From: Comamonadaceae bacterium
Lineage (GTDB): Bacteria; Pseudomonadota; Gammaproteobacteria; Burkholderiales; Burkholderiaceae_C
DNA length: 39,590 nucleotides
Assembly (NCBI GenBank): GCA_947453645.1
Contig: CANGHG010000003.1
Coordinates: 1-39,590, forward strand
Direction of reading: 5' to 3'
A program made the position numbers and the translations under genes. Of the stretch, positions 16,502-20,737 are shown in pieces (positions within the stretch are counted from its first letter, which is position 1; the number at the start of each line of letters is the position of its first letter). The notes below the pieces were generated by a model that ran no database searches, was not told the origin of the DNA, and was given only the letters and a program-made list of their open reading frames with translations.

Positions 16502-16594
16502 GGAAACGTGACCGAGTGGCCGAAGGTGCTCCCCTGCTAAGGGAGTATGGGGTGTTGAGCCTCATCAAGGGTTCGAATCCCTTCGTTTCCGCCA
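16502..16594 (+). tRNA. tRNA-Ser, anticodon GCT (reads AGC/AGU)
   Basis: A 93-base cloverleaf can be drawn by hand. The acceptor stem is GGAAACG (16502-16508) with CGTTTCC (16584-16590), then discriminator G 16591 and encoded CCA 16592-16594. The anticodon stem is CTCCC (16529-16533) with GGGAG (16541-16545), and the loop CTGCTAA places GCT at 16536-16538. A long variable arm of class II type contains TGGGG and CCTCA. The T arm is AAGGG-TTCGAAT-CCCTT (16567-16583). The long variable arm and the GCT anticodon identify serine. Confidence 0.97.
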
Positions 16595-16605
16595 GCTACC
16601 ACATC

Positions 16606-16630
16606 AAAACGCCCCTCACGGGGCGTTTTT
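16606..16630 (+). terminator. Rho-independent terminator after tRNA-Ser
   Basis: CGCCCC (16610-16615), loop TCAC and GGGGCG (16620-16625) form a perfect GC stem, flanked by AAAA on the left and TTTTT on the right. It ends the lysC/tRNA-Ser transcript. The A-run on the other side lets it also work for transcripts from the minus strand. Confidence 0.92.
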
Positions 16631-16765
16631 GTTATCCACACTCCAACTACCAGTTCTTTTGAATTGAGTTGATCTTATTTGCAACTAAATCTGCCTGCTC
16701 ACCTGCAGCAAACCCTGTTCAATATTTCTACAAAGAACCAGGTATTTTTTCCAGCATTGAGAAAT

Positions 16766-17392
16766 TCAAAACAACATTCCCACGTTGATAAATGAACGGT
16801 TCAAATTGGTGATGGAGTTTAGATCCGCACCCAGGTAGAGGTTTGGGGTGAATTTGTATTTCATGCCCAGCGCCAGGCCGTGGCGCCAAGTACGCTGGCC
16901 CAGCATCTCGGCGCTGGAGAAATGATAAGCGGTCGTTGTTTCAAATCCTGGAACCCAACTGACAGATTTGAGCCCCAATCGAAGTCCAAAATCAGTGGTG
17001 CCAGGGAAAAGGGTGAACAACGCATCTGAGTGCGATACAACCGCCAGCATGTCGGTCCCTTCAGACAATGCTTGCCTGTAGCCCAAGCCCATTTTGTTTT
17101 TTCGATAGTGGTCTTCGCTGCTACCGCTGCCGGTGGATGTGTGGTCATAGCCAGCAAGCAGGTAAAAATGTTCGTTGAACAAATAACTGAGCTCGAAAGA
17201 GTAGCCTGTGTAATTGGCTTGACCTTGGGTGTTGGTCACATCTTGGGTGGTGTGTCCGATGGCCACATGGCTGTAATTCAGACCATTGGCACTAAGGGGT
17301 TCAGCATTCAACGGAAGGCATGCAAGCGTACATCCCACCGTCAGCAGCAGTGCTTTGAAGTTCAATGGATCCGTAAACCTCGCCAACAACAT
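16766..17392 (-). CDS. Small outer-membrane beta-barrel protein (unknown role)
   Basis: 208 residues. It has a cleavable signal peptide (hydrophobic FKALLLTVGCTLACLPL, then NAEP with cleavage near residue 31). The mature part is made of alternating amphipathic strands rich in aromatic residues (YTGYSFELSYLFNEHFYLLAGY, split by turns; HGLALGMKYKFTPNLYLGADL) and ends in Phe (INVGMLF), the usual signal for BAM-dependent insertion. The size suits an eight-stranded barrel. I do not recognise the family. The ATG at 17392 shares one base with the previous stop (TAATG), so it is translated together with the upstream 562-residue exported protein, its probable partner. Confidence 0.75.
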   Translation of the reverse strand: MLLARFTDPLNFKALLLTVGCTLACLPLNAEPLSANGLNYSHVAIGHTTQDVTNTQGQANYTGYSFELSYLFNEHFYLLAGYDHTSTGSGSSEDHYRKNKMGLGYRQALSEGTDMLAVVSHSDALFTLFPGTTDFGLRLGLKSVSWVPGFETTTAYHFSSAEMLGQRTWRHGLALGMKYKFTPNLYLGADLNSITNLNRSFINVGMLF

Positions 17393-19080
17393 TATTGGAA
17401 AAAGGCGCTGTCAATCAAAACTTCCTTCGAAGTAGTCACCACAAATGTGCTCACAATCCCGGTGAATTTTTTGTCATGACTGGTACCTTTGAAAGTCCCT
17501 GTGATGTTGAAACTGATCACGCAAGTTTTCCCATTCCAGCCGTAACTGATGTTGGTGGCTGTGCCTCCGGCGCTTAAAAATTCAGAATAGTCACCGTTGT
17601 AATAAACACCAAGACCTCTTCTCACGCGCTTGGTGAATCCATTTGCAAAATCACATATTTGCTTGTACTGATTGATATTCAAGCATCTCTCGCCTGAACT
17701 ATCAGTGCAAGTGCCATCGTTGTAGTATTTGTACTCGAGGCTAGGATTAAGAGTTGCTTTGGTAAGAGGTAGATTTCTAATTCTTTGAGCTTCAGCCAAG
17801 CGTTCTTTTTCAATTTGAGCTTCTTTTTCAAGTTTGGCTTCACGTTCTTTTTTGATTGAGGTGGCCGTGGCGCCATTTTTTTTCGATGCGGAATTTTTGT
17901 CTTCAAGGTATGACATGACTTCCGTTAGATTCTTTCCTTCACCATATTTGGCAGCACGAATTTCATTCAAAATTTGTTCATAGGTGGTCTTGTCCGAAAT
18001 GCCGTTGGAATTCAATGTGGCGAGTACTTTGGGCGTTGCGCCAATTTGTGCGGCAAAGTCAAGATCGGATAAGTTGTTGAACCCTTGTTTTTTGGCCCAA
18101 GTTTCTCGCAGCTCAACGACATTCACCAATGTATTTATTTCATAAGCCTTGGCTTTTTGATCCCGCTCAATAGCGGTCATGAGCTGTTTTAAATTCTTTG
18201 GGAAATCAACATAGACGTGACATGCAGAATTGTCGCGTTGGTATTCTTTGTAGAAGGAATCGATATTTTTGAAAACAGTAGAGTAGGGCCGTGTTTTGTT
18301 GAAAGTGGCCTCTGCTTTGACTGCGTTTTTTCTAAAGATCGCAGAGGTATAAAAAATAACCCCTTCACCGTAAACGGAAATTGCTTGTGAGACTGGCCCA
18401 GCATATTCCGATGTGCAAATTTTCAAAGCACTATCTTGTTGAATTTTGTAACTTAGAGTGATTGATCCTAATTTTTCAAAATTGTCACTGGAGGCATATT
18501 TTTCAATATCAGATGCCCATAGCTTTTCATCATTGGCTCTTTTCTGCTGTGCTTCTTCATTTTTCTTGATCGCCAACTTTAAATTTTCTAATTTCAATTC
18601 GGAGAATAATTCAAAATTTGAAAATTCTTGCAACCCTGCCAACAAAGGAACAGCCTTCCTTTGAATAATCACAACATTGGCTGTGTTGTGACCTATGAAA
18701 TCATTCCCGTTGATGCACTCAGTGCTGCGGTTTTTGATTTGTTTTTTGCCGTACAACCGAGTGATGGTATCTTCAACTTCATTTAGAAATATTTCTTGAG
18801 TCGTATCTGGATTACCAAGATTTTTGTAAGTGTCAGGAAACAACACAAAACAGTAAGAATATCCACGGCGATCTAAAGCCTCATTGTTATCTAATGTTTT
18901 GGTGCCGTCGATATTGGAAATGATTTTGAATTCATTGAAGAACTTGTTGTAATACAAAACCAAATCGGCTTCGTTATTTGTAACGGATGGGGCAGGTTTA
19001 TTTTGGGCAGCAGCTGTACCTGTTATCGCTATCAAAATGATGAAAAATAAGCTTTTAAAACTTTTTAAAAAAATGTCCAT
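17392..19080 (-). CDS. Unrecognised exported protein with coiled coil, in AT-rich DNA
   Basis: 562 residues from ATG 19080, which has GGGGA about 6 bases upstream; a TTG at 19092 is possible but unneeded. A signal peptide is clear (SFKSLFFIILIAITGTAAAQ, cleavage around residue 25). The middle is mixed helix with charged stretches (LKLAIKKNEEAQQKRAND). Residues about 405-440 form a Lys/Glu-rich coiled coil (KKEREAKLEKEAQ, then EKERLAEAQRIRN). The C-terminal 120 residues are beta-rich with several Cys (DGTCTDSSGERCLN, QICDFANGF, KTCVISFNITG) and may be a separate disulfide-bonded domain. No known domain is recognised. Base composition is far lower in GC than the flanks, indicating acquisition from elsewhere. 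It is coupled to the barrel gene by TAATG. Confidence 0.75.
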   Translation of the reverse strand: MDIFLKSFKSLFFIILIAITGTAAAQNKPAPSVTNNEADLVLYYNKFFNEFKIISNIDGTKTLDNNEALDRRGYSYCFVLFPDTYKNLGNPDTTQEIFLNEVEDTITRLYGKKQIKNRSTECINGNDFIGHNTANVVIIQRKAVPLLAGLQEFSNFELFSELKLENLKLAIKKNEEAQQKRANDEKLWASDIEKYASSDNFEKLGSITLSYKIQQDSALKICTSEYAGPVSQAISVYGEGVIFYTSAIFRKNAVKAEATFNKTRPYSTVFKNIDSFYKEYQRDNSACHVYVDFPKNLKQLMTAIERDQKAKAYEINTLVNVVELRETWAKKQGFNNLSDLDFAAQIGATPKVLATLNSNGISDKTTYEQILNEIRAAKYGEGKNLTEVMSYLEDKNSASKKNGATATSIKKEREAKLEKEAQIEKERLAEAQRIRNLPLTKATLNPSLEYKYYNDGTCTDSSGERCLNINQYKQICDFANGFTKRVRRGLGVYYNGDYSEFLSAGGTATNISYGWNGKTCVISFNITGTFKGTSHDKKFTGIVSTFVVTTSKEVLIDSAFFQ

Positions 19081-19088
19081 ATTGATCC

Positions 19089-19140
19089 CCAATTTGATAC
19101 CTAAAATTGATCTCAGTTTTATCTATTTTATCAAATTTGG
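19089..19140. repeat. Near-perfect inverted repeat flanking the candidate promoter start
   Basis: CCAATTTGATA (19089-19099) and TATCAAATTTGG (19129-19140) are inverted copies differing by one A, with 29 bases between. They bracket the predicted -10 and transcript start of the 562-residue protein gene. This could be a dimeric operator or a leader stem-loop. Confidence 0.45.
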
Positions 19141-19151
19141 CGATAATTCAA
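19125..19151 (-). promoter_or_regulatory. Candidate promoter of the AT-rich exported-protein gene
   Basis: On the minus strand TTGAAT (19151-19146) and TAAAAT (19130-19125) are separated by 15 bases. Transcription would start near 19118, about 38 bases before the ATG at 19080. The region is so AT-rich that -10-like strings are expected by chance, hence moderate confidence. Confidence 0.4.
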
Positions 19152-19227
19152 CGTCTCTCTTCTGAGCAGAGGCAGCTCATCAAGGTGAGTACTGAGATGG
19201 CGCGCCGAGTTGAGGAATGACCTAGTC

Positions 19228-19542
19228 TCAGGGCTTCAGCAACACCCGCATGACTTCATTCACCGAGGCACCTGGTTCACGTTCGCAAAAAACGTTGGCT
19301 TTCTCTATCAATGTTTCCACAGCAGGCATGGTCTGAAAAATATCCTGGCCGTTTTGCGCCAGTTGTGCGTCACGCCAACCGTTCACATAACCAAATAGCC
19401 ATTCGCGCTGAACCGCGCTGCTGAGGTTGGCTTTGCGAGCGGTGTTCCAGGCATCGCAAGTTCTGGCTTGAAGCGCTTGCGCTTGAGCGCCCAAGGGATA
19501 AAGCATGGCGGTGAGGCATAGCGCAGAGAAAAAGCGTTTCAT
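19228..19542 (-). CDS. Small secreted protein, possibly Rap1a/Tai-like fold
   Basis: 104 residues. A signal peptide is present (MKRFFSALCLTAMLYPLGAQAQ, in two parts: charged MKR and a hydrophobic core; cleavage near AQA-QA). The mature protein of about 82 residues has two Cys (in ARTCDAWN and ANVFCERE) that may form a disulfide, and a central helix REWLFGYVNGWRDAQ. The Cys-helix-GYxxG-Cys layout resembles the Rap1a/Tai and HdeA-like periplasmic families, but this is a resemblance by eye only. The ATG at 19542 overlaps the stop of the preceding small membrane-protein gene (ATGA), so the two are coupled. Function unknown. Confidence 0.75.
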   Translation of the reverse strand: MKRFFSALCLTAMLYPLGAQAQALQARTCDAWNTARKANLSSAVQREWLFGYVNGWRDAQLAQNGQDIFQTMPAVETLIEKANVFCEREPGASVNEVMRVLLKP

Positions 19543-19750: not shown

Positions 19751-20737
19751 ATGAGCTGGTTAGACCATTCCATCATGCGCCAACGTGGCGTTGCCCAAGG
19801 TCGCAACCCCACCACCCACGAGTTGAGTGAGGCCAAACAAGGCAATTACCACTACACGATTGGCCCCTACTCACAACCGGTGCTCAGCGTCAAACCAGGC
19901 GACCGAATCATTGTGGAAACCCGAGACGCTTTTGAGGGCAAGGTGAAAACCGAGCAAGACCTGCCCTCCAAGGTGCTGACCATGCCCTTTGTCAATCCTC
20001 AAAACGGCCCCATCATGGTCGAGGGCGCTGAGCCTGGTGATGTGGTGGCGGTCTACATCGAGTCCATCGCGCCGCGTGGCCCCAACCCGCGAGGCACCTG
20101 CGCCATGATTCCTGAATTTGGTGCCCTGAGTGCCACCATGTTCACCTCTTTGCTCACTGAACCGTTGCCTGAAATTGTGCGCAAAATTGATGTTGATGAA
20201 AAAGGTGTTTATTGGAGCAAGCGGGTCACCTTGCCTTACAAACCGCACATTGGCACCTTGAGCTGCTCGCCCATGCTGGACTCGATCAACACCCTCACAC
20301 CTGACACCCACGGCGGCAACATGGACTTGCCTGATATGGGCCCTGGCAGCATCACCTATTTACCTGTCTGGACCGATGGCGCGCGGGTGTTCATTGGTGA
20401 CGCCCACGCTTGCCAAGGTGACGGCGAGGTGTGTGGCACGGCCGTGGAGTTTCAAAGCACCACCACCATCCAGGTCGACTTGATCAAAAAATGGTCCATT
20501 GGCTGGCCGCGTCTTGAAAACGAAGAAATGATCATGGCCATTGGCAGCGCCAGACCTTTGGAAGACGCCACCCGCATTGCCTACAAAGACTTGGTGCTCT
20601 GGATGGAGGCCGAATATGGTTTTGACCGTTGGGACGCCTACATGATGCTCAGTCAGTGCGGACGGGTGCGTTTGGGCAACTTCGTGGACCCCAAGTACAC
20701 GGTTGGAGCCGGCATTCTCAAAACTTATTTGAAGTAA
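19751..20737 (+). CDS. Acetamidase/formamidase family protein (FmdA_AmdA)
   Basis: 328 residues, cytoplasmic. The family hydrolyses short amides such as formamide or acetamide to ammonia and the acid. Landmarks: a beta-rich N-terminal half with VKPGDRIIVETRDAF, GAEPGDVVAVYIESI near residues 93-107, HGGNMDLPDMGPGSITYLPV near 187-206, and IGDAHACQGDGEVCGTAVEF near 213-232, which holds the conserved Asp/His/Cys/Glu metal and active-site cluster. The ribosome binding site AGGAG (19738-19742) lies 8 bases before the ATG. It is a single gene with no nearby amide or urea transporter, so the natural substrate is uncertain. Its stop abuts the stop of the convergent receiver gene with no gap. Confidence 0.9.
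   Translation: MSWLDHSIMRQRGVAQGRNPTTHELSEAKQGNYHYTIGPYSQPVLSVKPGDRIIVETRDAFEGKVKTEQDLPSKVLTMPFVNPQNGPIMVEGAEPGDVVAVYIESIAPRGPNPRGTCAMIPEFGALSATMFTSLLTEPLPEIVRKIDVDEKGVYWSKRVTLPYKPHIGTLSCSPMLDSINTLTPDTHGGNMDLPDMGPGSITYLPVWTDGARVFIGDAHACQGDGEVCGTAVEFQSTTTIQVDLIKKWSIGWPRLENEEMIMAIGSARPLEDATRIAYKDLVLWMEAEYGFDRWDAYMMLSQCGRVRLGNFVDPKYTVGAGILKTYLK

Follow-up and report, generated by a model that had tools for sequence, protein, structure and literature searches.

A probable strain-specific cassette behind tRNA-Ser(gct) in a Comamonadaceae bacterium, with a member of a sparse exported-protein family beside a predicted outer-membrane barrel

The AT-rich islet at positions 16631-19227 of the stretch of DNA analysed here (the window, 39,590 nucleotides, which is one contig of the 1.59-Mb, 69%-complete genome of a Comamonadaceae bacterium) is probably a small cassette, specific to this strain and located where recombination is frequent behind tRNA-Ser(gct), in which a gene for an exported protein of the periplasm or envelope lies beside a gene for an independent barrel (Table 1). 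The drop in composition next to the tRNA gene, noticed in a preliminary description of the sequence, is real: the islet has 41.8% G+C against a contig mean of 57.5% (sd 2.9 over same-size stretches outside the islet; z about -5.5), the lowest same-size stretch elsewhere in the contig has 50.8%, and at 18541-18600 only 18 of the 60 bases are G or C (counted by eye). The gene-by-gene computation proposed at that time bore out the AT-richness for the exported gene, with a G+C of about 39% (0.391) against 57% for the contig and a GC3 of 0.406, but not for the barrel gene, whose G+C of about 50% (0.503) and GC3 of 0.591 are within the values of nearby ORFs (0.49-0.58 and 0.57-0.69, respectively, from 13.2 to 23.2 kb with the islet excluded; this range comes from a simple caller and may include false ORFs). 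The dip is owed mainly to the exported gene.

Table 1. Features of the islet and of its left border, in positions of the window
Feature	Position	Strand	Basis and remarks
tRNA-Ser (anticodon gct)	16502-16594	+	ARAGORN; left border of the variable site, behind lysC
G+C-rich hairpin, terminator-like	16607-16630	+	By eye; absent from the terminator-scan list; congener homology stops near here
Barrel ORF, 208 aa from ATG (199 aa if TTG 17365), C-terminal Phe	16766-17392	-	ORF list
Exported protein, 562 aa from ATG 19080	17392-19080	-	ORF list; relatives in 8 further genomes
AT-rich upstream region	19081-19227		Sequence; homology to the congener G015 restarts at 19239

The DNA from lysC to the tRNA gene matches 75 of the 84 genus genomes (own genome included) at E <= 0.001, many of the matches being short, and the stretches behind tRNA-Ser(gct) were read in 13 congeners, for 378 bases in G492, 381 in G012, 952 in G023, 2207 in G462 and at least 3.5 kb in the other nine. 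The homology of the window to these congeners stops between 16594 and 16643, at 16630 in four of them, and over the first 3.5 kb that follow the terminator in the window only one of the 13 (G015) matches again, by a 122-aa gene; farther out G013, G014, G015 and G006 rejoin the window from about 19.75 or 20.8 kb. Neither islet gene was found behind the tRNA by profile search in these 13 congeners, four of which were read for only 0.4-2.2 kb; such a comparison of the lysC-tRNA-Ser locus across relatives, looking for presence or absence of the pair, had been proposed in the preliminary description. The content in place of the pair differs among the relatives. G015, in the interval from the tRNA to the 122-aa gene that it shares with the window, carries SRAP (E 1e-32), MerR (E 3.2e-16) and an ORF of 139 aa that matches no Pfam family and has a signal peptide by eye; G014 has 2.5 kb of AT-rich DNA behind the tRNA (G+C 0.418), with a 382-aa ORF (L026 17965-19113) of no Pfam family and again with a signal peptide by eye; G013, G014 and G036 have a gene order of their own in common; and G462 bears a tyrosine integrase gene (Phage_integrase, PF00589, E 1.8e-14; L033 573-1610) 0.2 kb behind the tRNA, and 82 bases there are common to G462 and G492 at 77% identity. 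A small AlpA-looking ORF, without a Pfam match, was also seen by eye in L033 of G462 on the strand opposite to the integrase. The site behind tRNA-Ser(gct) is variable, and an integrase-bearing element has used it in at least one congener.

Within the islet itself, the marks of an integrative element, namely an integrase gene and, at the far border, a direct repeat of the 3' end of the tRNA, were not seen: the ORF list of 16631-19227 contains no integrase-like ORF by eye, the 22-base tRNA 3' end has no second copy in the window at up to 3 mismatches, and its 14-base end has only chance-level matches in the window, none of them near the islet. The differing content behind the same tRNA in the 13 congeners, together with the sparseness of the exported gene (below), supports the earlier suggestion of accessory, probably transferred, DNA beside a tRNA gene. 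The distance from the acetamidase gene to the tRNA is 3.2 kb in the window versus about 20 kb in G013 and G014. This acetamidase/formamidase gene (19751-20737) is 94-95% identical in five congeners (G012, G468, G021, G013 and G014), with any match in 18 of the 84 genus genomes, mostly far weaker, and the neighbouring sensor kinase is only 63-68% identical in the four congeners where it was read. The tRNA-flanked flexible islands of Methylophilaceae, in the portion of their description available (PMC10872708), likewise have variable cargo with a tRNA-Ser border; however, they belong to another bacterial family and are bordered by tRNA-Ser gga instead of gct, and the cargo in the window consists of two genes only, with tRNA repeats not found.

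The smaller of the two genes was placed by the first inspection among the outer-membrane barrels, and the profile matches are in accord with this. The protein of the window matches OMP_b-brl (PF13505) at E 4.8e-6 and 27.3 bits, just under the gathering cut-off of 28.7, all five aligned barrel members (the window's included) match the same family at E <= 0.01 (best E 4.9e-8), and residues 22-122 match Ax21/OmpO (TIGR04273) at E 4.6e-7 and 30.1 bits against an NCBIfam cut-off of 250. By these comparisons, OMP_b-brl is the family to which the predicted barrel is related, with a weak relationship to Ax21 as well. Its C-terminus reads GMLF; the alternation of hydrophobic residues was not significant by two measures (p 0.08 and 0.16), and the single-sequence AlphaFold2 model was useless (mean pLDDT 29.8). 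Of 60 other genomes searched, 6, all of them in the genus, have relatives with 25-31% identity, and none were found in 298 other genomes of the family (299 searched, with the own genome alone giving a match) nor in viral contigs. In two of the congeners (G015 and G035; L004 and L005), the barrel relatives adjoin ORFs that by eye look like a pair of sensor kinase and NarL-type response regulator. The Ax21/OmpO proteins, such as Ax21 of Xanthomonas and ObfA of Vibrio cholerae, are small barrels with signal peptides, as is predicted for that of the window. In the available parts of the respective papers, ObfA is described as released on vesicles and as having about 25% identity to the Ax21 family (PMC11386269), and secretion in vesicles is reported for Ax21, itself a predicted barrel (PMC3897388). 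Vesicle release is thus reported for that known system, which the barrel of the window resembles in its small size, its signal peptide and a weak profile match.

Both ORFs, of 562 and 208 residues, and their shared TAATG exist as first described, the stop codon TAA of the exported gene and the ATG of the barrel gene overlapping by one base. A longer exported ORF of 566 aa from TTG 19092 is an alternative, and a GGGGA lies a little 5' of the exported-gene ATG (by eye). For the barrel, on inspection by eye, a purine-rich stretch is absent immediately 5' of the ATG in TAATG, and a start there would give a signal peptide beginning MLLARFTDPLNF, with an acidic residue included; TTG 17365, located 27 bases downstream, would give (M)NFKALLLTVGCTLACLPLNAEP, a more usual signal peptide, and it aligns with the starts of the congeners' barrels. 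The true start of the barrel may thus be TTG 17365, in which case there is no overlap and the TAATG coupling is possibly an artefact; translational coupling may occur, but it cannot be relied on. The scan for promoters and terminators was uninformative (1 promoter-like site versus 5.0 expected; 5 terminator-like versus 3.9 expected).

On the basis of this junction, the two genes had been taken for coupled partners with a fixed stoichiometry, making up a two-part envelope system in which the exported protein would work with the barrel or be secreted or displayed by it; in a fuller form of this reading, the exported protein would be coupled to the barrel in translation and might also be anchored by it. 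The adjacency of the genes on one strand, the TAATG and the signal peptides seen by eye in both proteins speak for such a system. However, among 42 sequences examined by profile search (the window, the loci of the exported relatives in 8 further genomes, 7 barrel-relative loci of 6 congeners and 20 tRNA-side stretches, with flanks mostly of 1.5 kb and up to 8 kb, some of which ended at contig ends), the two families occur together in the window only, and the co-occurrence across genomes by which a two-partner system would be recognised is not seen there; this result is evidence against a fixed pair, short of proof. The exported relatives adjoin other genes: that of Inhella, a gene for a patatin-like phospholipase (PF01734, E 2.9e-28; L011 3361-4305), and others a LysR-type regulator and a carbonic-anhydrase-like protein (ORF lists, by eye). 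The differing composition of the two islet genes, furthermore, hints at different histories, and the possible TTG start would do away with the overlap. A two-part system is, on present evidence, unlikely, and the claim of partnership is not sustained.

For the exported protein, nothing in Pfam or NCBIfam scored above its curated cut-off, and Pfam gave no match for four of its relatives. Besides the own genome, 8 others proved to have relatives, i.e., one of the genus (G013), three of the family (G081, G275 and G360) and four of the order (G578, G683, G741 and G827), and the members include Inhella crocodyli, an Inhella MAG, the Comamonadaceae MAG G013 and Betaproteobacteria bacterium MOLA814; Comamonadaceae and Inhella are both within Burkholderiales. 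With the own genome included each time, the gene is present in 2 of 84 genus genomes, 4 of 399 sampled genomes of the family and 5 of 399 sampled genomes of the order, and in none of the 40 genus genomes at least 90% complete, many congener genomes being incomplete. Identity between the protein of the window and the other members is 15-31% over residues 148-435. The gene has a low G+C both in the window (0.39) and in G013, where it is 0.37 and the contig is at about 0.51; in Inhella, MOLA814, G578, G741, G360 and G827 the composition of the gene is near that of its surroundings. The tree of nine members did not resolve, with a weakly supported grouping of the window and G827 (73/86) and without rejection of the two congeneric copies held together (p 0.37), and for that reason leaves gain versus loss undecided. 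No relatives were found in phage and plasmid records by tblastn, nor in viral contigs by a pattern scan suited to close relatives only; a scan of genome contigs with the exported protein of the window alone found none, and PHROGs gave no match for either protein of the window. Two library matches were set aside: JetB of a defence library (E 0.0014 over 87 residues), weak and obtained with the window protein alone among the four scanned, and an M3 peptidase of NCBIfam, taken for a chance match (E 1.7e-4; 20.3 bits, with the cut-off at 442), whose best stretch covers 55 residues of the helical region. By sequence comparison, the exported proteins form a sparse Burkholderiales family that is not named by the libraries searched.

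The layout of the exported protein, as predicted, comprises a signal peptide (by eye), an alpha/beta region at about 38-196, a second alpha/beta and helical region at about 203-400, a long helix at 405-435 and a Cys-containing C-terminal region at 436-562; the long helix and the Cys residues of the C-terminal part, noted in the preliminary description as a coiled coil with a Cys-rich end, were borne out by the AlphaFold2 model and the sequence comparison. The model was made from 5 sequences, with a mean pLDDT of 57.8, 230 of the 562 residues at pLDDT 70-90 and a poor C-terminal region. All eight aligned domain sequences have both Cys 222 and Cys 287, whereas the full-length alignment (n = 9) lists Cys 287 and not Cys 222 as invariant, so that the invariance of Cys 222 rests on the domain alignment; counterparts of Cys 77/122 are found in four of eight proteins compared. 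The pairs 222/287, throughout the family, and 77/122, in part of it, are probably disulphides. The C-terminal region of the window is common to the member in G827 (score 78 versus 50 for the largest of 300 shuffles), and against three other members (Inhella, MOLA814 and G013) it scores 23-27, no better than shuffles, while these three share a different C-terminal region among themselves (scores 184-260), a kind also seen in G578, G683 and G741 (alignment, by eye). As judged from these alignments, the C-terminal domain is exchanged between members and, being swapped, probably sets the specificity. Additional sequence is present at the N-terminus of the members in Inhella and MOLA814, and the member in G578 has by eye the appearance of a lipoprotein (LAGC), so that the localisation may differ among members.

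A reading of the exported protein as a type II periplasmic binding protein of the PtxB/PhnD kind, which would feed a ligand through the barrel or report that ligand, was prompted by the fold of residues 38-165 in the model, which aligns best with PtxB (Z 5.0, rmsd 3.6, 95 residues), with PhnD chains, LAO and HisJ among the structure matches. However, a Z of 5 is usual when a model has no clear counterpart, and folds of other kinds reach a similar Z among the same matches; Foldseek found no match for the exported model in PDB or the viral library at E <= 0.001, PDB sequence searches with the exported family and domain profiles had a best E of 0.048, and no SBP family was matched in the profile searches. 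Against 21 Phosphonate-bd sequences (from 24 loci, minus L069 with a stop and the two weakest, L077 and L078), hhalign gave a probability of at most 0.2%, versus 0.07-0.11% in controls and other comparisons. Nor do the two alpha/beta regions of the exported protein have hhalign support for being alike, an earlier score between them having had no control. The likeness to PtxB and PhnD is thus a weak one of fold, without sequence or profile support, and the reading, which has little probability, may serve as a weak lead.

That the two genes are native ones in a low-G+C patch instead of acquired DNA is very unlikely, as the mobile genes not seen in the patch, the barrel composition in the neighbours' range and the barrel relatives in 6 other genus genomes, which favour it, stand against an exported gene found in just two of the 84 genomes of the genus, the search for either gene at the site in the 13 congeners read, which found neither, and an islet composition far removed from that of the remaining contig.

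In the cassette that is the preferred explanation of the islet, two genes would thus sit at a recombination-prone site behind tRNA-Ser(gct), the content of which differs among congeners and includes an integrase in one of them. The exported protein would leave the cytoplasm via Sec and stay in the periplasm or at the envelope, where it may work as a binding or sensing module, with a body held by probable disulphides, followed by a helical stalk and an exchangeable C-terminal domain that probably sets the specificity. The barrel would be an independent small outer-membrane protein, perhaps co-transcribed. It is conceivable, though very doubtful, that the family represents a new modular envelope class with a disulphide body, a helical stalk and exchangeable heads, carried on tRNA-side cassettes of Burkholderiales and here captured beside an Ax21-like barrel to make a new surface display pair.

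The case also serves as a warning that a stop-start overlap alone, without co-occurrence in other genomes, is poor evidence for partnership. As a whole, the islet is an ordinary example of the variable cargo of a tRNA site in a betaproteobacterium. Proteins of binding or recognition often have such a design with a swapped C-terminal domain, and the exported family, with no curated match, a thin spread across the order and such a domain, is worth naming.
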